A stretch of 64,000 nt of DNA, taken from positions 4,989,501 to 5,053,500 of the forward strand of contig NZ_CP012602.1 in NCBI RefSeq assembly GCF_001278805.1. Reading direction: 5' to 3'. This DNA comes from Bacillus sp. FJAT-18017 (GTDB taxonomy: Bacteria > Bacillota > Bacilli > Bacillales > Cytobacillaceae). The notes beneath the pieces are model-generated. The model did no database searches, had not been told where the DNA came from, and saw only the letters and a program-made list of their open reading frames with translations. This document shows, one piece after another, positions 55,385 through 64,000 of the stretch (positions are counted from its first letter, which is position 1; each line of letters starts with the position of its first letter). Both the position numbers and the translations under genes were made by a program.

Positions 55385-55584
55385 CATTTCCCTTCACGCT
55401 CCAGCCTGCGGTCCCGTTTATACACATAAAAAGCAACCGGGAACAGCAGAACATTCAATGTCCCAAAGATTAAAGAGGTGGCATAATTCTCGAAAAAGTA
55501 CTGCTGGATCATGAAGTGGGTGCAAATAATGTTCAGCATTAAAATAGCACAAAGGATGAAGAAATTCACTTTGCTAGGCTTCAT
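55384..55584 (-). CDS. Small two-helix membrane protein of the molybdoenzyme operon (66 aa)
   Basis: Two helices (FFILCAILMLNIICTHFMIQ and SLIFGTLNVLLFPVAFYVYK) joined by a short loop, with a charged C-terminal tail (RDRRLEREGK). It overlaps the Rieske gene by 11 bases. It may be an accessory membrane subunit. No family recognised. Confidence 0.72.
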   Translation of the reverse strand: MKPSKVNFFILCAILMLNIICTHFMIQQYFFENYATSLIFGTLNVLLFPVAFYVYKRDRRLEREGK

Positions 55585-56098
55585 AGCGTTTCACCCCTGT
55601 TGCATAAATGCCACCTTTATCGACCTTCACAAATATCTCCGGAAGCGGCCTTCTAGGCGGGCCTGCTGTCGGTGCACCGGTTTCGACATCAAACTTGCCA
55701 TGGTGGCATGGGCAGAGCAAATCATTTTCTTTCTTATCCCAGAATACCGGGCAGCGAAGATGTGTACATGCATTCTGATAAGCTACAAATTTTTTCTCCG
55801 AAAGCCTGATCATGATTGCACTGTCATGTTCACCGGGATAATGGAATTCAACAGCATCGCCAATAGCGACTGAATCCAGGCTGGCAATTTTTTGGCGAGG
55901 GTATTCCTTTTCCCCAAGCCCAGCCAATTCCTTTGCAGCCATTACTCCCCACGGCAGGGAGGAAACTGCGAAAACGCCCGCCGCTCCGACAAGAGTCTTC
56001 ATAAAGCCGCGGCGGTCCAGCTTCCGCTCGTTGTTGCGGTTAATATTATGGGTATAGTTATCTTCTTCGAACGGGATTTTATTATTTTTCTCTGACAT
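55574..56098 (-). CDS. Tat-exported Rieske [2Fe-2S] protein
   Basis: 174 residues. An N-terminal Tat signal/anchor has the twin Arg in LDRRGFMKTLVGAAGVFAVSS (residues 27-47). The Rieske domain has ligands Cys111/His113 in CTHLRCP and Cys129/His132 in CPCHHGKFD, with Cys116 and Cys131 as the usual disulfide pair. GPPRRPLPEI near the end is also typical. The 2Fe-2S domain should sit outside the membrane, as in bc1/b6f complexes, yet no standard bc1 genes are nearby. It starts 11 bases after the ferredoxin gene. Confidence 0.9.
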   Translation of the reverse strand: MSEKNNKIPFEEDNYTHNINRNNERKLDRRGFMKTLVGAAGVFAVSSLPWGVMAAKELAGLGEKEYPRQKIASLDSVAIGDAVEFHYPGEHDSAIMIRLSEKKFVAYQNACTHLRCPVFWDKKENDLLCPCHHGKFDVETGAPTAGPPRRPLPEIFVKVDKGGIYATGVKRYEA

Positions 56099-56109
56099 GC
56101 CAATCCCTC

Positions 56110-56673
56110 CTAAAACAGTTTCGTTACACCCTGCAGGATACCCGGCAGGTTGACTTTAACATTTGTTTCTCCCTCCAGATATGGAAGGCTTGTTACCCAC
56201 TTGCCGCCGTTATCCAGATTGAATTGCTCTCTTTTTGCATCAATCTCTTCATCTGTCAGCCATTGCAGAGTATTTGTCGGGCAGACGCTCGCACACATTG
56301 GCGGGATGCCATCCTTCGAGCGGTCGATACATAGATCGCATTTATACATTAAGTTTTGCTCGGTATCAAACTTAGGAATACCGTATGGGCAGGCAATCGT
56401 ACAGTTTTGGCAGCCAATGCACTTTTCAACAAGCGCTGATAGAACGGCGCCTGTTTCATGAATCTGAATTGCCTGGGCAGGACAGCTTCTCGCACATGCC
56501 GGGTTCTCACAGTGAAGGCACATCAGAGGCATGGTTTGCCGGTTAACAAGCGGATTTACGTCATAAACGTAGTTCCTGTTCCGTTCCTCATGCCCGCCGC
56601 ACTGTGTGCAGGCAGCCAGACATGAGCGGCATCCTATACAGTTTTCGAGTTCTATATACAACCTCTTGTTCAT
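56110..56673 (-). CDS. Four-cluster ferredoxin subunit (NrfC/DmsB-like)
   Basis: 187 residues with four Cys motifs for four [4Fe-4S] clusters (CIGCRSCLAACTQCGG, CLHCENPACARSCP, CIGCQNCTIACPYG, CDLCIDRSKDG...CASVCP). It carries electrons between the membrane cytochrome and the molybdoenzyme. No signal peptide. ATG 56673 overlaps the stop of the catalytic gene by 4 bases with GAAGAAGGTG upstream, as for subunits made together. The first cluster's extra CTQCGG differs slightly from classic DmsB. Confidence 0.93.
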   Translation of the reverse strand: MNKRLYIELENCIGCRSCLAACTQCGGHEERNRNYVYDVNPLVNRQTMPLMCLHCENPACARSCPAQAIQIHETGAVLSALVEKCIGCQNCTIACPYGIPKFDTEQNLMYKCDLCIDRSKDGIPPMCASVCPTNTLQWLTDEEIDAKREQFNLDNGGKWVTSLPYLEGETNVKVNLPGILQGVTKLF

Positions 56674-58883
56674 GATTGCACCTTCTTCAATAAGCATTTT
56701 TCGTTTTGTGCTTCGACTTTTTCAATCTGGGCAGCGCATGCCTTGAATTCAGGCATCCGGCTGATTGGGTCGAGTGCCGGTATAGTCAGCAGGTTAATTG
56801 ACTTCTCATGTCCCCATGAATACGGAACAAATACTGTATCTTTCCTGATGGCTTCGGTAATTTTCACCGGATACTCCGCTTCACCGCGGCGTGTATACAG
56901 GCGCACTCTTTCTTCGTGCTCAATACCGTACTTTTCCGCAGTTTCCGGATGAACCTCTACAAAAGGCTCCGGACACATATCATGCAAGAATTGAATTCTG
57001 CGAGTCTGATTGCCTGATAGATAATGATAGACCACCCTGCCAGTTGTCAGGCGAAGCGGGAACTCATCATCTGGCTCCTCTGCGGGTGGTGTATAGGGAA
57101 GCGCGAATAGCTTTGCTTTACCATCTGGATGATAAAACTTCTTGTCGAGGAACAAATGGGGTGTTCCTGGATCGTCTTCGCTCTTGCAAGGCCAGAAGAC
57201 GCCGTCCTGTTTATCAATCTTTTCCCATGTAACACCGGAATAATCCGCTATTCCGCCTTTTGAAGCACGGCGCAGCTCATTAAAGATATCCAGAGGCGTT
57301 TTTAAATGAGAGAAGTATTTGCCACGGCCCATCCGTTCTGCAATTTCAACCTGTATTTTCCAATCCGGTTTAGATTCGCCAAGCGGTTTCTGGGCCTGGT
57401 TGATTTTAATGATCCGTCCTTCTACATTCGTTGTTGTTCCTTCATCCTCGGCCCAAGTAGTAGTTGGCAGGATAACATCCGCAAATTCGGCTGATTCAGA
57501 CATGTAGAAATCAACACAGACCATGAAATCAAGATTCTTCATTTGTTCTCTTACATAGTTCAGATTTGGTGCCGATACCGCTGGATTTGAGCAGAGCAGA
57601 TACAAGGCACGAATTGTCTTTTGTTCCATCAGCCCGAACATTTCATATGCGGATACACCTGGTAACGGCATTTCCTCAGGCTGGATTCCCCATACCTCAG
57701 CTACTTCACGAACGTGTTCCGGGTATGCAAGCTTCCGGTAGCCAGGAAGTGCGTCAGCCTTTTGGCCATGCTCGCGGCCGCCCTGTCCGTTGCCTTGACC
57801 GGTAATTGTGGCAACCCCGGCTTTAGGCCGGCCAATTTTACCAGTAACCAGCGACATATTTACATAAGCGGATACGTTATCTACACCTTTTTTCTGCTGC
57901 TCAATGCCGCGTGCGAACATGACAATCGCATTGGGTGCTTTCCCGAACAGCTCAGCTGCCTTAATGATTTTCTCCGGTGCAACACCCGTTATCGCACTTG
58001 TATATTCTGGAGTGAACTCTTTTAAAAGTTCTTTAAGCTCTTCAAAACCATTCGTATGGTTATTTACAAAACCAATATCAGCATAGCCATTTTGGATGAG
58101 CAGATTTACTATCCCATTTGCAAGGGCAAGGTCGGTTCCAGGCCTTAAATCAAGATGTACATCTGCCCGTCTTGCAATTGGCGTTTCCCTCGGGTCGGCA
58201 ATGATCAAGTAGCCGCCGCGCTCTTGAACATTCCAGACACGAAACATGGAAGTCGGATGGCATTCAGCTGTGTTGCTTCCAGCGATAAACAATAGGTCAG
58301 TTTCGTGGACATCAGTCCAAGGTACAGTGGAGCCGCGGTCGATTCCCAAAGAACGATTCAAGCCGCCAGCCGCGCTTGACATACAAAAGCGGCCATTATA
58401 ATCAATATATCTGGTCTGCAGGCCGACACGGGCAAATTTCCCTGTCAGGTAGCACTTTTCATTCGTCATCGACACGCCACCGTAAACAGATACGCTGTCT
58501 TTACCATAGTCCGCCTGAAGCTTCTTAAAGTTAGTAACAATCAGGTCATACGCTTCATTCCATGTCGCTTCCCGGAACCCTTCTTTTGTACCCTTCAAGG
58601 ATTTATCATCACGGATAAGCGGCTTTAGAATCCGGTCTTGGTGGTTAACCTGCTGGTATGCGGTTACACCTTTCGGGCACATTTTTCCAAGTGTGACCGG
58701 CCAGTCGTAGCGAGGTTCAACCCCGATAATCTTATTCGTTGCAGTATTAACGCGAAGATTCATCCCGCACTGCATCGCACAGTAGCTGCAATGTGTCGGT
58801 ACGAGGGTTTCATTTGGATGAATGACATTTTCTACTTCTTTGAAATATTTATCGCGTTCGTTCCTGAACTCAACCTTTTGCAT
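56670..58883 (-). CDS. Molybdopterin oxidoreductase, Nap/NarB-like catalytic subunit
   Basis: 737 residues. The N-terminal [4Fe-4S] ligands are Cys32, Cys35, Cys39 and Cys69 (HCSYCAMQCGMN...KMCPKG). The molybdenum ligand is probably Cys167 in YNGRFCMSSAAGG, the form seen in Nap and assimilatory nitrate reductases; formate dehydrogenases usually have CHSS or selenocysteine. GQGNGQGGREHGQKAD and the C-terminal molybdopterin domain (LRLTTGRVVYHYLSGNQTRR) complete the fold. No Tat signal, so it should be cytoplasmic. Nitrate is the most likely substrate, by motif and by the NreABC-like neighbours, but it is unproven. Confidence 0.85.
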   Translation of the reverse strand: MQKVEFRNERDKYFKEVENVIHPNETLVPTHCSYCAMQCGMNLRVNTATNKIIGVEPRYDWPVTLGKMCPKGVTAYQQVNHQDRILKPLIRDDKSLKGTKEGFREATWNEAYDLIVTNFKKLQADYGKDSVSVYGGVSMTNEKCYLTGKFARVGLQTRYIDYNGRFCMSSAAGGLNRSLGIDRGSTVPWTDVHETDLLFIAGSNTAECHPTSMFRVWNVQERGGYLIIADPRETPIARRADVHLDLRPGTDLALANGIVNLLIQNGYADIGFVNNHTNGFEELKELLKEFTPEYTSAITGVAPEKIIKAAELFGKAPNAIVMFARGIEQQKKGVDNVSAYVNMSLVTGKIGRPKAGVATITGQGNGQGGREHGQKADALPGYRKLAYPEHVREVAEVWGIQPEEMPLPGVSAYEMFGLMEQKTIRALYLLCSNPAVSAPNLNYVREQMKNLDFMVCVDFYMSESAEFADVILPTTTWAEDEGTTTNVEGRIIKINQAQKPLGESKPDWKIQVEIAERMGRGKYFSHLKTPLDIFNELRRASKGGIADYSGVTWEKIDKQDGVFWPCKSEDDPGTPHLFLDKKFYHPDGKAKLFALPYTPPAEEPDDEFPLRLTTGRVVYHYLSGNQTRRIQFLHDMCPEPFVEVHPETAEKYGIEHEERVRLYTRRGEAEYPVKITEAIRKDTVFVPYSWGHEKSINLLTIPALDPISRMPEFKACAAQIEKVEAQNEKCLLKKVQS

Positions 58884-59952
58884 TCTGGTTGGCCTCCTTG
58901 ACTTTCACTTGGTGTGTTGCAATTCCTGAGAATTGTGCGATCCGGTATTTGCGGCGGCAAGGCAGGCATAGCTCGGCGAGGTGATAGCCTTCCTGGGACG
59001 CAAATTCTATTTTGTTTACTCCGAGAACATCGATAACATCGTTGGATTGCTCAACTGAAACAAATTCTGTTCCGCACACCTTGCATTCCTTCATCGCCTG
59101 TTCACTGTAATGTTCACGGTAGTTTCTCGCCAGAACACTCATAGGGCGGAATGGGATATGCGCCAATTTTCCAAATGGCATATAAATCAGCGTAATAATA
59201 ACTGAATACTGATGAATCAGGGACATCGCCTGGTGACCAAAACCGTGCAGAAAGACATTGATGAATGTCAGAGCCAGCCCAGTTATCGAGACCAAAAGCA
59301 GCAGATAAAGCGGCATGAAATCATACATGAATGTCTGCTCTGCCCTAGCCTGCATATTTTTCAAACGGCGATACAGCGCCATACAAACACCTGTAATAAC
59401 CATGATCGCGGAGATATTCAATGCATTATAAGACAAGAAAGCGATAAAGCCGTCAGCAGGTACTGTCATTAAGTTAATTCCCATAAAAACGATTGTGTAC
59501 ATACCATTGTCTGCCATCGTGAAGTACATCCAGCCAAACACAAGCGGGAATGTAACCATAAGCGCGAGCACGCAGCCCCAGCCCATCATGATGTGCTGTG
59601 TCCAGCGGTACAGACCGCGGTTCCAGATGAACCGATATGTAACCAGCTGTTCTGTCGCTGTTTTAGGAGTTGATTTCTTGAATATGAGCTTTAACCCTTT
59701 TTTAATAAAAACCTTAGTAGGCGGGCGCTCTCCCCAGGAGATAAACCGGTAAAAAAAGCCTCCCAGAAAAACAATTGTGCCTACCATATATCCATAAAGG
59801 TTCAAGTCAACATGGGTGAACATCCGGGTTGCAATAAATGAAAGAATAACGATTCCACTAATTGTTAAGAACATGGACTTGGCAAAATGTGATGCGAACG
59901 CATCGCTTACCGATTTACCTGGCTTTTTTGCCGTTTCAAGATTTGCCTGCAT
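58870..59952 (-). CDS. NarI/DsrM-like cytochrome b subunit with C-terminal Cys domain
   Basis: 360 residues, first gene of the operon. About six helices (26-44, 53-71, 120-145, 152-195, 212-235, 245-262). Possible haem ligands are His120 in WTQHIMMGWG and His247/His265 in LIHQYSVIITLIYMPFGKLAHIP, matching the H...PFxxLxH end of NarI-type quinol-oxidising subunits. After the last helix, a soluble tail has CKVC (290-293) and CLPC (329-332), likely a zinc or rubredoxin-like site, unusual for NarI. It overlaps the catalytic gene by 14 bases. It probably delivers electrons from menaquinol. Confidence 0.8.
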   Translation of the reverse strand: MQANLETAKKPGKSVSDAFASHFAKSMFLTISGIVILSFIATRMFTHVDLNLYGYMVGTIVFLGGFFYRFISWGERPPTKVFIKKGLKLIFKKSTPKTATEQLVTYRFIWNRGLYRWTQHIMMGWGCVLALMVTFPLVFGWMYFTMADNGMYTIVFMGINLMTVPADGFIAFLSYNALNISAIMVITGVCMALYRRLKNMQARAEQTFMYDFMPLYLLLLVSITGLALTFINVFLHGFGHQAMSLIHQYSVIITLIYMPFGKLAHIPFRPMSVLARNYREHYSEQAMKECKVCGTEFVSVEQSNDVIDVLGVNKIEFASQEGYHLAELCLPCRRKYRIAQFSGIATHQVKVKEANQNAKG

Positions 59953-60233: not shown

Positions 60234-61460
60234 TCATTCACTGGTTTTCAAGCAGCTTTCATTATCCTGCCGACGTGTCCCTGTTCCACTGTACTTCCTT
60301 GACCATGAAAAAACAAGGATTCCACCACCAATGACCGTTTCAAGGATAATGAGCATCCCATCTATAAAAGGTTTAGAAAGGATTGGATTACTTAATCTTT
60401 GTACAGCCTCTTCCATGACATATGTCATTTGAGGCAGAGAATAGAAGACAAAAATCGCCACAGTCAAGCAGACACCAAGAAAATAAAAGATGCTGTACGT
60501 TGCAATTGTCCATTTTTCCTCTTTATATGATACTTCACCTATGTTCCGATCTTTCTTACTAAACAAATTTCTTAAAAGGTAATTGGCATTTTCCATTAAA
60601 TTATAGCTGCCAGTTACATTCTCAAGCACAAAATACAGATCCGTTTTCATATATATGCCACACTGAAAAACAAATCGGATAAAAATGTCGATCACTACGA
60701 TTTTAGCAATGGATAATAAAAGTGCAGGACTCTCAGGGTAAACTATCTGAACAGATAAAGCAGCTGCCAGAATCACCATATCCAAAGCCAAACCTCCTAG
60801 ATACAGAACATTCCTGCTTCTCGATGGTAATTTCCATGCTGCAGTCAGGTCTGTTTCCAAAACGATAAACACTAGTCTATGACTAAGGCTTAACTTTGCA
60901 GGCAACCCTTTGGAGCGAATGGATAAAATATGGCCTAGTTCATGGATAACTAATAGAACTGTACCGATTCCCATCCATAGAAGAATATCCAGAGCCATCC
61001 ATTCAAATACGAAATAATCGGTGTAACTTGGGAATAATTCAGGAAACATGATAAAAAGACCTAGGTTTAACAAAAACAAAAGTACATAAATAGAAAAACT
61101 GATCTTATTAAAAAAAAGCTTCCCAAGGTTGGGAGGAATCCACAAGAAGCCTTGAGAAGCTAAAGATTTTTCTTTATGTTTGATAACATCCTGTCCGTCA
61201 ATTTTGCTTACCAGTTCCAACTCTATAAGTTGATGGGTAAAGTCAAGGATATCAATCTCTTCTTCTGGATACAATGCTTCAAGCTCAACTTGAATGGTCT
61301 CCAAGTCAACCCCTCGATTAATTTTACCTATAGCGTCAATTGCCGGAAGAGGCATTTCATAAAAGTCCCCGGAATTTAAATCCTCTACTATATAATTCTT
61401 CTTATCACTCCGAATAACATGTGGAACCAATGTCAACTTTGATAAATATGTTATTTTCAT
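60234..61460 (-). CDS. Membrane M50 zinc protease with N-terminal PqqD-like domain
   Basis: 408 residues. The N-terminal part (about 1-95; YIVEDLNSGDFYEMPLPAID, DFTHQLIELELVSK) looks like the PqqD-type winged helix (RRE) that binds RiPP leader peptides. Helices follow from about residue 120. The zinc motif HELGH is at 173-177, and MKTDLYFVLENVTG near 271-284 is a likely third ligand (Asp274). About six to eight helices. The arrangement resembles peptide-processing M50 proteins such as YydH. It lies 44 bases after a 25-residue peptide gene, the probable substrate. No ABC transporter or radical-SAM gene is adjacent. Confidence 0.78.
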   Translation of the reverse strand: MKITYLSKLTLVPHVIRSDKKNYIVEDLNSGDFYEMPLPAIDAIGKINRGVDLETIQVELEALYPEEEIDILDFTHQLIELELVSKIDGQDVIKHKEKSLASQGFLWIPPNLGKLFFNKISFSIYVLLFLLNLGLFIMFPELFPSYTDYFVFEWMALDILLWMGIGTVLLVIHELGHILSIRSKGLPAKLSLSHRLVFIVLETDLTAAWKLPSRSRNVLYLGGLALDMVILAAALSVQIVYPESPALLLSIAKIVVIDIFIRFVFQCGIYMKTDLYFVLENVTGSYNLMENANYLLRNLFSKKDRNIGEVSYKEEKWTIATYSIFYFLGVCLTVAIFVFYSLPQMTYVMEEAVQRLSNPILSKPFIDGMLIILETVIGGGILVFSWSRKYSGTGTRRQDNESCLKTSE

Positions 61461-61504
61461 CTGCTTATTTTCACCAGCCTATAATGATTGAGATGCATAA
61501 TTAA

Positions 61505-61582
61505 TTACGCACCACCCAACCACCAGCACCACCAGCAAGGAATTGCAGTTGCTTTTACTTTTTTAAGCTTACGAATTTTCAT
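61505..61582 (-). CDS. Putative RiPP precursor peptide with CWWCWW core (25 aa)
   Basis: ATG 61582 behind a GGGGGGTGG site; TAA at 61505. The product has a basic leader (MKIRKLKKVKATA) and a Cys/Trp-rich C-terminus (IPCWWCWWLGGA). It lies 17 bases after the HD-GYP gene and 44 bases before the PqqD-M50 protease gene. Small size, leader/core layout and the neighbouring leader-binding protease all suggest a ribosomally made, processed peptide. I know of no described family with this core. No modifying enzyme is seen in the window, so cleavage alone, disulfide formation or a distant enzyme is possible. Confidence 0.62.
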   Translation of the reverse strand: MKIRKLKKVKATAIPCWWCWWLGGA

Positions 61583-61599
61583 TTTTCCACCCCCCTTTT

Positions 61600-62778
61600 C
61601 TAACCTATATTAAAGTTTGAAAATTGACCTATTGGTTTACTATTCCATTCTTTATGAACTTGTGTCCATAAAGGATATACTACTTTAAATACCTCTACCA
61701 ATTGTGGATCAAACTGTGAACCACTCCCCTGAAGAATTCTGGTATAAGCTTCATCCGTTGATAGTGCAGCCCGGTAAGACCTCGAACTTGTCATAGCATC
61801 AAATGCGTCTGCAATTGAAGAAATTCGGGCTAGGTAAGGTATTTCTTCACCTTTTAATTGATCAGGATATCCTTTGCCATCCCATCTTTCATGGTGGGAT
61901 CGTATAACAGAAATGCTAGAACTTAGTCCCTCAACATTTGCGACAGCTTTTTCTCCTACGGCTGGATGAGACTTTATTATTTCATATTCTTCTCTTGTTA
62001 GGGCAGTTGGTTTCATAAGAATATTGTCAGGAATTTGAACTTTTCCAATATCATGCAAAAGACAAGCATAATTAAAGGTTTTTAATTCCTCTTTGGAAAA
62101 CTTCCCAGTTTCTTTTGCAAGAATTTGGGCATAAATAGCTACCCTTTCGCTATGGCCCCTCGTATAGGGATCCTTTAATTCAAGTGTTGAGATTACACCC
62201 TTGACTATTCCGATTAACTGGAGGTCATAGGAGGACTTTACAGCGTTCACATATGCCTGGAATCTGCTCATGATAATAAAGGAGAATATCGAAAGAACGC
62301 CAACCATCAGAAGCCCAAAAAGGGCATAAGCTGATTTAAGCATAGCTCCAAGAATTAAATATTTTGCAATGAATCCAAGTAATACAGTAAAAAAGAAAGG
62401 AGTGCTGACAAAAATAGGAGCCAGGAGTAGCCAAAAAATTTCTACAGGATTCCCACTTCTTAAATTTTCATCGCTCCCAACAAAAGTTAAGATATCATTA
62501 AATAGTGTTAGCAATGTATATGTTATAAAATATAGATACTTAACAGAGTAGGACCGTCCTGTCCTGAAAAGATACCATGCTACCGGAATGAGCATAAATA
62601 GAAAGATGTAAATCGTATATCCCATCACATCATCTATCTCATAGTCACTTCCCATTTCCGGCATAAAAATGTCATAAAACAAGTCGAACCCTAAGGAAAT
62701 TATATAAAATAGGGCTATAAACCATTTTAGTGATCGCTCTTCCTCGTTTAAAATACTTCTGTTTATATGTTTTTGCAT
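61600..62778 (-). CDS. HD-GYP domain protein with membrane sensor (putative c-di-GMP phosphodiesterase)
   Basis: About 392 residues. Six helices make an N-terminal sensor (residues 18-175). The HD-GYP domain (about 195-370) has ELKDPYTRGHSERVA, LLHDIGK (the HD pair), HHERWDGKGYP and SIADAFDAMTSSRSYR. All expected catalytic residues are present, so degradation of c-di-GMP is likely. The membrane domain resembles that of the neighbouring kinase (LRSGNPVEIFWLLLAPIF here, [18 protein letters not shown] there). ATG 62778 is preferred because GAGGT directly abuts the earlier ATG. Confidence 0.88.
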   Translation of the reverse strand: MQKHINRSILNEEERSLKWFIALFYIISLGFDLFYDIFMPEMGSDYEIDDVMGYTIYIFLFMLIPVAWYLFRTGRSYSVKYLYFITYTLLTLFNDILTFVGSDENLRSGNPVEIFWLLLAPIFVSTPFFFTVLLGFIAKYLILGAMLKSAYALFGLLMVGVLSIFSFIIMSRFQAYVNAVKSSYDLQLIGIVKGVISTLELKDPYTRGHSERVAIYAQILAKETGKFSKEELKTFNYACLLHDIGKVQIPDNILMKPTALTREEYEIIKSHPAVGEKAVANVEGLSSSISVIRSHHERWDGKGYPDQLKGEEIPYLARISSIADAFDAMTSSRSYRAALSTDEAYTRILQGSGSQFDPQLVEVFKVVYPLWTQVHKEWNSKPIGQFSNFNIG

Positions 62779-62857
62779 TGCCATACCTCGTCGCTTAATC
62801 GGATTGTCTAGATGTTAATCTTTAGAGTTTTTGCCAAAAATTAAGACTCCCTCTTAC

Positions 62858-62954: not shown

Positions 62955-64000
62955 TTACTCCTTTGGCAGAAAAATATTAATGGTAGTTCCCTTACCCACT
63001 TCACTATGAATCTTGATTTCCCCATTATGATCAAGGACAATTTGGTTTGTTACCATTAAACCAAGTCCAGTACCATCTGCTTTAGTTGTAAAAAACGGAA
63101 TAAACAACTTTTCTAAATGTTCCTGCGGGATTCCGCAGCCATGGTCAGTAACGGTAAGTACAACTCTATCCTTACTGTCCGCACTAATCTGAATCCGTAC
63201 TTCTCCAGTTTCCACCATCGACTCTACTGCATTCTTCACCAGATTAATCACAAGTTGCTTTAATTGTTTCTCATCGCCCTTAATGTTTATAGGCAAGGGC
63301 TCGTATTCCTTAATCAACTTAATGTTTGTTCCAATTGCAATTTGCTCACAGATTGAAATTGCATAATCAACAATTTCCACCAAATTGACCTGGGTATTAA
63401 TTTCGCGTTTCGGCTTTCCAAGAATCATTAAGTCATCGACAATTGTTCCAATACGATCAACTTCTTGTTTCATAATTGGAGTGTAATCACTTTTACTCAA
63501 AGGGGATTCTTGCTGTAACTGAATGAATCCCTTTAAAGAAGTAAGCGGATTTCGAATTTCATGGGCAATCCCCGTTGCCATTTGCCCGAGATTTATTAAT
63601 TTCTCTTTCTGATTCATCTCATCATTAATGGCAATTAGAGCATTAATATACGAATTTATACGAGTTAAAATGATATACGAAATAACAGAGATGAGAAGAA
63701 GTAAAATTAACGGCAGTAGGACATCGGTTGTTTGTAAAGCAAGACCGGTTATCAGGTATTTGACCATAATGCCTATTGTAACTGTCCAATAATAGATTTT
63801 ATTAATAAATATTGGTGCAAAAAAGATAAACACAACTTCTGTAAAGTTGCCAGCACGAAACGACTCATTCGTGTTGTAATAGATTAATAGATTGTTAATC
63901 ATATCTAGCAGATTATAAGTTATAAAGAAAAAATATTTAATTGTATATAACTTGCTTTTTTTATAGAGACCAAAACAGATTGGCAGTAACAACAGTCCGA
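62955..64000 (-). CDS. Membrane sensor histidine kinase (N-terminus cut by window edge)
   Basis: At least 347 residues, open to the right edge; the true start lies beyond. Helices up to about residue 115 form a sensor like that of the HD-GYP protein. Then come a linker ([20 protein letters not shown]), HisKA with the phospho-His in [20 protein letters not shown], and HATPase_c ([30 protein letters not shown]). It is the Kin type typical of Bacillus sporulation or environmental kinases. No response regulator gene is adjacent in the window. Confidence 0.88.

Follow-up and report, generated by a model that had tools for sequence, protein, structure and literature searches.

A gene of only 25 codons, encoding a peptide with a strongly basic leader and a CWWC motif, is conserved in Bacillus sp. 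FJAT-18017 and its relatives between the gene of a MASE12-HD-GYP phosphodiesterase and that of an M50 metalloprotease with a predicted leader-binding domain. We studied it in a stretch of 64,000 nucleotides of this genome (hereafter the window), for which an earlier note had put forward a minimal RiPP system made of the peptide and the protease. From gene content, the unit is larger than noted, as the MASE12-HD-GYP protein belongs to it (154/154 loci), often together with a MASE12 kinase. We give about an even chance to the reading that this unit is a peptide-signalling or micropeptide-regulatory cassette with c-di-GMP as its output, in which the protease would process the peptide while the piece made of CWWC and the tail would act on the MASE12-HD-GYP protein. 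This model builds on the conserved gene set, the conserved catalytic residues, the predicted folds, the selection pattern and the natural losses of the protease; from these we infer leader binding, cleavage and its site, the direction of release, the identity of the receptor, action between or within cells, export and the chemistry of the cysteines. The features concerned are the following.

60234..61460, minus strand: RRE-M50 intramembrane metalloprotease, 408 aa (Pfam and NCBIfam scans of homologues, alignment, structure model)
60639..60641, minus strand: D274, probable third zinc ligand, in an invariant MKTD motif (invariant in 54 aligned sequences)
60930..60944, minus strand: HExxH zinc site (H173, E174, H177; invariant in 54 aligned sequences)
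61191..61460, minus strand: PqqD/RRE-like domain, protease residues 1-90 (predicted fold)
61505..61582, minus strand: peptide gene, 25 codons, MKIRKLKKVKATAIPCWWCWWLGGA (ORF translation; orthologues beside the close M50 gene in 154/154 loci)
61526..61537, minus strand: CWWC motif, residues 16-19 (both Cys in 132/132 peptides; kept in both M50-less loci)
61547..61582, minus strand: codons 1-12, conserved Lys/Arg leader, putative RRE-binding part (selection and conservation; diverged in two M50-less genomes)
61583..61600, minus strand: G-rich ribosome-binding stretch 5' of the peptide ATG (Shine-Dalgarno-like string in 151/153 orthologues)
61600..62784, minus strand: MASE12-HD-GYP c-di-GMP phosphodiesterase, 394 aa (Pfam MASE12 2.3e-27, HD_5 4.9e-36)
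62955..63998, minus strand: MASE12-HisKA histidine kinase, 5' end beyond the window (Pfam MASE12 3.5e-21, HisKA 1.7e-13, HATPase_c 9.5e-30)

The peptide ORF (61505-61582) lies upstream of the M50 ORF (60234-61460), with a gap of 44 nt, and an orthologue is found 5' of the M50 gene in all 154 loci of the close subfamily, which stand for 128 genomes (one per species) and 26 named loci, the latter partly overlapping with the former. A script detected such an ORF, of the MKIRKL type with C[WYF][WVIL]C, in 153 loci; in the last one (L164, genome G810), where pieces of a group II intron (Rfam RF02001 and RF01998; L164:1814-2099) part the peptide from the M50 gene, it was seen by direct look. The frame expected beside homologous proteases is thus conserved throughout the close subfamily. 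Likewise, a first protease search matched 37 of 101 related genomes, with an upstream MKIRKL...CWWC ORF in 30/30 loci read. A Shine-Dalgarno-like string, defined by a broad pattern, precedes the ORF in 151 of 153 loci. Among these loci 138 peptide DNAs are distinct, and the 132 distinct M50-linked peptides, 18 to 26 residues long, share the consensus MKIRKLKKVKTT-CWWC followed by a fast-evolving tail of 2 to 10 residues. L6 and both cysteines are invariant (132/132), while K2 (131/132), R4 and K5 (130/132 each) and T12 (129/132) are nearly so; the first tryptophan of the core is W in 130/132 peptides and the second in 124/132, being otherwise I, V or L. Hence, of the CWWCWW core highlighted in the earlier note, the CWWC part stands, whereas the second WW belongs to the variable tail.

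For the leader and CWWC, comparison of 70 distinct DNA sequences yielded 10304 synonymous versus 3604 non-synonymous codon differences (all pairs), with a median dN/dS of 0.045 (based on the 921 pairs, out of 2415, whose dS estimate is positive), which indicates that both parts are under strong purifying selection. At face value, an ORF of 25 codons in an intergenic gap, with no match to family models, might have arisen by chance; conservation in 154/154 loci combined with this dN/dS leads us to reject that explanation, whose probability we regard as negligible. A search for paralogues of the peptide in its own genome gave no other convincing match (next best E 0.30). At the sequence level, the 25-codon peptide gene is a real gene, and the overlooked gene with a basic leader and a Cys/Trp core that had first been proposed from the window alone is borne out.

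A regulatory role of the ORF itself has also to be weighed, in which it would be a Trp- or Cys-codon attenuator controlling the M50 gene, its product being without function. The adjacent Trp codons are in line with this idea, as are the terminator-like hairpins found between peptide and M50 genes in 59/152 loci versus 2/152 after one mononucleotide shuffle each. Yet the amino acids of the leader are conserved, and not only the Trp codons, in spite of many synonymous changes, the downstream protein has a leader-binding type of fold, and Rfam gives no match at the gathering score in seven named loci, the stretch in the window having a sub-threshold snoRNA match (E 0.51). Above all, loci without a downstream M50 gene retain the CWWC ORF (see below), and it is mainly for this reason that we reject attenuation as very improbable. 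A hairpin between the two genes would give more peptide than protease. The copy in the window has no terminator hairpin after the peptide; a stem of the GGATGC...GCATCC type is common to 14 of the 59 hairpins.

The structure model of the M50 protein features an N-terminal PqqD/RRE-like fold followed by a site-2-protease core, and residues 1-90 match the RREs of TbiB1, lasso B1 and PqqD proteins in Foldseek searches, though with weak E-values (best 0.026). The M50-PqqD fusion is therefore supported at the level of the structure model, and the PqqD-like N-terminus anticipated by the earlier note is predicted as well. The model also combines the HExxH site with a distal aspartate in a predicted S2P fold; the role of D274 as a ligand is presumed from the S2P family. 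In scans with E-values up to 10, all 54 homologues match Pfam M50 (best 5.6e-6) and 10/54 match Pfam PqqD (best 0.014). The NCBIfam models for the daptide protease (29/54, best 1.3e-6), YydH/LiaK (7/54, best 1e-7; no match for the window protein) and PqqD-WgkC (20/54, best 3.1e-4) are matched too; these matches are weak, and the unrelated lipoate-ligase model LplB is also matched by 11/54 homologues. A sequence search of the PDB with the M50 alignment returned no match at E up to 0.1.

Upstream of the peptide, an HD-GYP homologue is present in 154/154 loci. Its complete HD and GYP motifs make it a putative phosphodiesterase: the catalytic residues H211, H244, D245, H273, H297, H298, G305, Y306 and P307 are invariant in 26/26 aligned proteins. 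The model of this protein (mean pLDDT 82.8) shows six N-terminal helices, then the HD-GYP domain. Searched against the PDB, it retrieved 16 chains of HD or HD-GYP type with E < 0.001, the best matches being HD-GYP domains, and nothing convincing for the six MASE12 helices. The kinase was counted in 86/154 loci, a figure kept low by the short flanks (about 1.5 kb) of 53 loci, and its position varies, as it lies downstream in L250 and divergently in L249, still adjoining the unit. Since the kinase is optional in other families (14 genomes with a close M50 gene in the order sample have a single MASE12 domain) and mobile, only HD-GYP, peptide and M50 make up the strict set, with the kinase as a frequent fourth member. 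The suspected link to the upstream HD-GYP/kinase pair is thus strict for its first partner and frequent for its second.

In the host family, MASE12 is found in 142/193 genomes. Among the 105 genomes with a close M50 gene, 104 have at least two MASE12 domains, the exception (G842) lying near a contig start, while three genomes without M50 have at least two (G041, G807 and G850, the contig of the latter ending just after the peptide). Another 34 genomes combine one MASE12 domain with no close M50 gene. Nine of their loci were read, and eight hold a MASE12 kinase with no such peptide nearby (for L157, the sequence extends only some 225 nt downstream). Altogether, a CWWC-type peptide or an M50 gene was found beside none of 14 kinase-only MASE12 loci (these eight, L163 in G064 and five in other families); MASE12 kinases therefore occur without peptide or M50, and MASE12 as such need not sense this peptide. 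In the ninth locus, L158 (7566-8827), a C-terminal M50 match comes directly after a MASE12 kinase, apparently because a deletion has removed HD-GYP, peptide and most of M50 from the module. In G807 (L238:218-4239), three MASE12 proteins stand in a row, two kinases and one HD-GYP protein, and the second kinase is apparently interrupted.

An M50 match of any kind was obtained in 48/299 genomes of the order sample and in 107/193 genomes of the host family, of which 105 belong to the close subfamily (G038 and G761 have distant matches only). In a sample of 398 genomes of the phylum, good matches were limited to the host and one genome of the same family, with none outside the family, and a spread of the module beyond the order was rejected, as there were only two fragmentary matches (E 1.1e-4 and 0.001). 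Among the named hosts are Neobacillus, Mesobacillus, Sporosarcina, Solibacillus, Ureibacillus, Oceanobacillus, Ornithinibacillus, Gracilibacillus and Paucisalibacillus. Distant M50 loci (25-32% identity) have neither the CWWC peptide (0/18) nor MASE12-HD-GYP (0/18), and the second M50 gene of the window's own genome (28% identity; C1:1024824-1025966, L077:7768-9000) has neither a CWWC peptide nor a MASE12 protein in its vicinity. Different micropeptides may accompany distant RRE-M50-like proteins: a 20-codon ORF with a good ribosome site, MKIKVRKSEKLAPTFIPYPG, lies at L078:6079-6141 before a distant M50 protein of 778 aa (29% identity). In G794 (L237), the M50 gene is split, with two overlapping matches (residues 2-199 and 196-392), next to an intact peptide and with an HD-GYP homologue upstream.

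Two natural losses of the protease inform on the parts of the peptide. G041 (L159) and G807 (L238) have no M50 match in the locus or elsewhere in the genome, and they keep the kinase, the HD-GYP protein and a CWWC peptide, the gene after the peptide being in both cases the respiratory gene seen after the module elsewhere. The two peptides, MKLIRFLMLIVSCWWCLWWQP and MNILKLKKLITACWWCAWLGV, both have a ribosome site; their leaders show a mean hydropathy of 1.83 and 0.57 (versus -1.39 to 0.06 in the 132 M50-linked peptides) and a net charge of 2 and 3 (versus a median of 6, range 3-6). Both contain [LVIMA][ASTVIG][GASN]C, a lipobox-like pattern of the kind that, after a hydrophobic stretch, goes with lipoprotein-type processing, against 7/132 M50-linked peptides, in a small sample and with short hydrophobic stretches. 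That the leader diverged where M50 was lost, while CWWC and HD-GYP were kept, links the former to the protease and the CWWC motif to the HD-GYP protein. These loci, albeit two cases only, are the best evidence for what would be a division of labour, with the leader serving the protease and CWWC the sensors.

According to the cassette model, the precursor of 18-26 aa (fixed, strongly basic leader, then C[W]WC and a variable tail) would be made, probably in excess over the protease, and the N-terminal RRE of the M50 protein would hold the leader at the cytoplasmic face, with the aromatic CWWC-tail part in the membrane. The M50 site would then cut near the TT/CWWC junction, thereby releasing the CWWC-tail piece within the membrane or across it. 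Finally, this piece would bind the six-helix MASE12 domain of the HD-GYP protein, and perhaps that of the adjacent kinase too, altering c-di-GMP breakdown and kinase activity. As no transporter family is common to the neighbourhoods, export would need the M50 protein itself or a general route. A more specific version, which we hold tentatively, is a cell-cell signalling system of Bacillales based on a minimal pro-pheromone, whose C(W)WC warhead is followed by a lineage-specific tail. It would be captured by an RRE-protease, set free with no dedicated modification or ABC export, and then read by MASE12-HD-GYP itself; where the protease is lost, the leader would become more hydrophobic and lipobox-like and another protease would take over. 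Through such direct reading, peptide sensing would feed into c-di-GMP without a response regulator.

The tail was compared with the other parts over 73 pairs having an M50 synonymous divergence (pS) of 0.02-0.55, pairs that are not independent because there are near-duplicates among them; for the tail itself, only tails of equal length were used (24 pairs with unequal tails being excluded). Non-synonymous divergence (pN) reaches 0.208 in the tail, as against 0.038 in the leader and 0.008 in CWWC, the median for M50 being 0.102, so that the tail is the fastest-evolving part of the peptide. This count replaces an earlier one over 743 leader-similar pairs (0.753 non-synonymous versus 0.100 synonymous differences per tail codon), which had suggested an extreme change of the tail and was not calibrated by divergence. 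Positive selection on the tail is not seen (pN 0.208 < pS 0.365), and relaxed constraint would also explain its change. In Mantel tests on 138 of 153 loci, in which shared ancestry remains in the statistic, tail distance is correlated with that of the HD-GYP protein, equally for MASE12 (partial r 0.135) and for the catalytic domain (0.133; 0/500 permutations each), and weakly with that of the RRE (0.067, 7/500), while it is not correlated with the M50 core (-0.023, 427/500) or the C-terminal part (431/500). In the 44 loci with a kinase, the value is 0.176 (1/500) for the MASE12 domain of the HD-GYP protein, with no link to that of the kinase (0.057, 104/500). The tail/HD-GYP correlation is weak, and it is equal for both domains. 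Leader distance, which varies little, is not correlated with RRE distance when other domains are held fixed (partial r 0.012, 197/500), which does not help the leader-recognition part of the model.

The same loci can be read with the opposite role for the protease. The intact peptide would be a membrane micropeptide regulator, bound to MASE12-HD-GYP and perhaps responsive to redox state or metals through its CxxC, and the RRE-M50 protein would remove it, the leader acting as a degron. The fate of the M50-less loci, where the leader diverges while CWWC and HD-GYP persist, accords with such an off-switch, and so do the lack of a transporter family common to the loci and the make-up of the peptide, in which both cysteines are fixed (132/132) and an aromatic residue occurs in the tail of 124/132 peptides, the sequence of the tail not being fixed. 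However, a lineage-specific tail has no obvious role in a regulator beyond hydrophobicity, and hairpins favouring an excess of peptide are more in line with a product than with a controlled regulator, albeit not decisively. We consider this alternative rather unlikely, yet the most serious rival to the cassette model in which a processed piece acts on the sensor.

Is the module a RiPP system? Of the minimal RiPP suggested in the earlier note, the leader/core architecture holds, with a near-invariant leader, a variable tail and selection on the coding sequence, and so does a leader-binding RRE in a pathway protein, as a predicted fold of residues 1-90; a modification enzyme is what does not follow. 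No radical SAM, YcaO, lanthionine or ABC domain was found in 15 scanned ORFs of the window (peptide included), and by gene clustering, no modification-enzyme or transporter family is common to 21 longer loci (14-16 kb). For want of a common modification enzyme, the name RiPP is unproven and should not be used yet, even though the module is built like the leader/RRE/protease half of such a system. That the product would be membrane-active, disulfide-bonded or metal-binding, as the earlier note put forward, or secreted, is likewise a proposal. An antimicrobial or toxin-like RiPP, whose modifying enzymes would be encoded elsewhere in the genome and for which kinase and HD-GYP would provide regulation or self-sensing, is in our view unlikely. 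It would account for the weak matches of homologues to daptide and YydH/LiaK protease models and for a Cys/Trp core that is chemically attractive, and PMC10885120 reports M50 proteases that mature the epipeptide EpeX and release pearlins. Against it speak the scanned ORFs and the 21 loci just mentioned, in which clustering revealed no further gene family throughout, and the strict link to an intact-looking c-di-GMP phosphodiesterase.

Among known systems, EpeX/YydF with EpeP/YydH is similar in having a small precursor gene beside an M50 intramembrane metalloprotease (PMC10885120), and the Bacillus subtilis operon is given as epeXEPAB in the abstract of PMC12871923. Seven of the 54 homologues of the present protease match the YydH/LiaK model (best E 1e-7), the window protein not being among the matches. 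The module differs by its fused RRE, its shorter and different peptide and its HD-GYP and kinase partners. Epipeptide operons carry a radical SAM epimerase and an ABC transporter; neither was found here in the scanned window ORFs or among the families common to the longer loci. The daptide intramembrane metalloprotease (NF041824) is matched by 29/54 homologues (best E 1.3e-6), although not by the window protein. Daptide loci include modification genes, whereas none of these was seen here, and the precursor is different. The pearlin proteases TglG and TmoG are likewise membrane M50 proteases acting on short peptides (PMC10885120); they remove C-terminal modified residues from a scaffold peptide, while here the C-terminus is the variable part.

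In organization, the module recalls quorum-sensing loci. Both agr (AgrD/AgrB/AgrC) and ComX/ComQ/ComP unite in one locus a short peptide with a conserved leader and a variable product, an enzyme in the membrane that processes it and a membrane sensor of several helices, all of which have counterparts here. Unlike in these systems, the processing enzyme is an RRE-M50 protein instead of AgrB or ComQ, an HD-GYP phosphodiesterase stands as the invariant sensor partner and no response-regulator family is common to all 21 longer loci. The sex pheromones of enterococci derive from lipoprotein signal peptides through the S2P protease Eep and are imported to cytoplasmic receptors. As there, an M50 protease would release a short hydrophobic peptide; in contrast, the peptide here has a dedicated gene and a basic leader that does not resemble a signal.

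In the open full-text literature (preprints being outside this scope), we found no description of a CWWC peptide cassette and no paper combining CWWC, Bacillus and peptide, and the CWWC and leader strings occur in unrelated contexts only, among the matches listed. For MASE12, a full-text search of the same literature gave unrelated mentions only (Alteromonas locus tags and image processing). If the cassette model is true, the MASE12 sensor domain gains a candidate ligand, c-di-GMP breakdown comes under the direct influence of a peptide signal, and RRE-M50 fusions are able to act on micropeptides for which no further enzyme is required.

A respiratory link of the module is possible, but other genera are devoid of the genes concerned. 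In the window (55574-59952) and in 8/20 longer loci (L031-L037, L043), genes for a nitrate-reductase-gamma-like protein, a molybdopterin oxidoreductase and a 4Fe-4S protein come after the module, and these neighbourhoods mostly feature a Rieske protein too, then regulator genes, which in the window encode a GAF protein, a LuxR-type regulator and HisKA_3 kinases.
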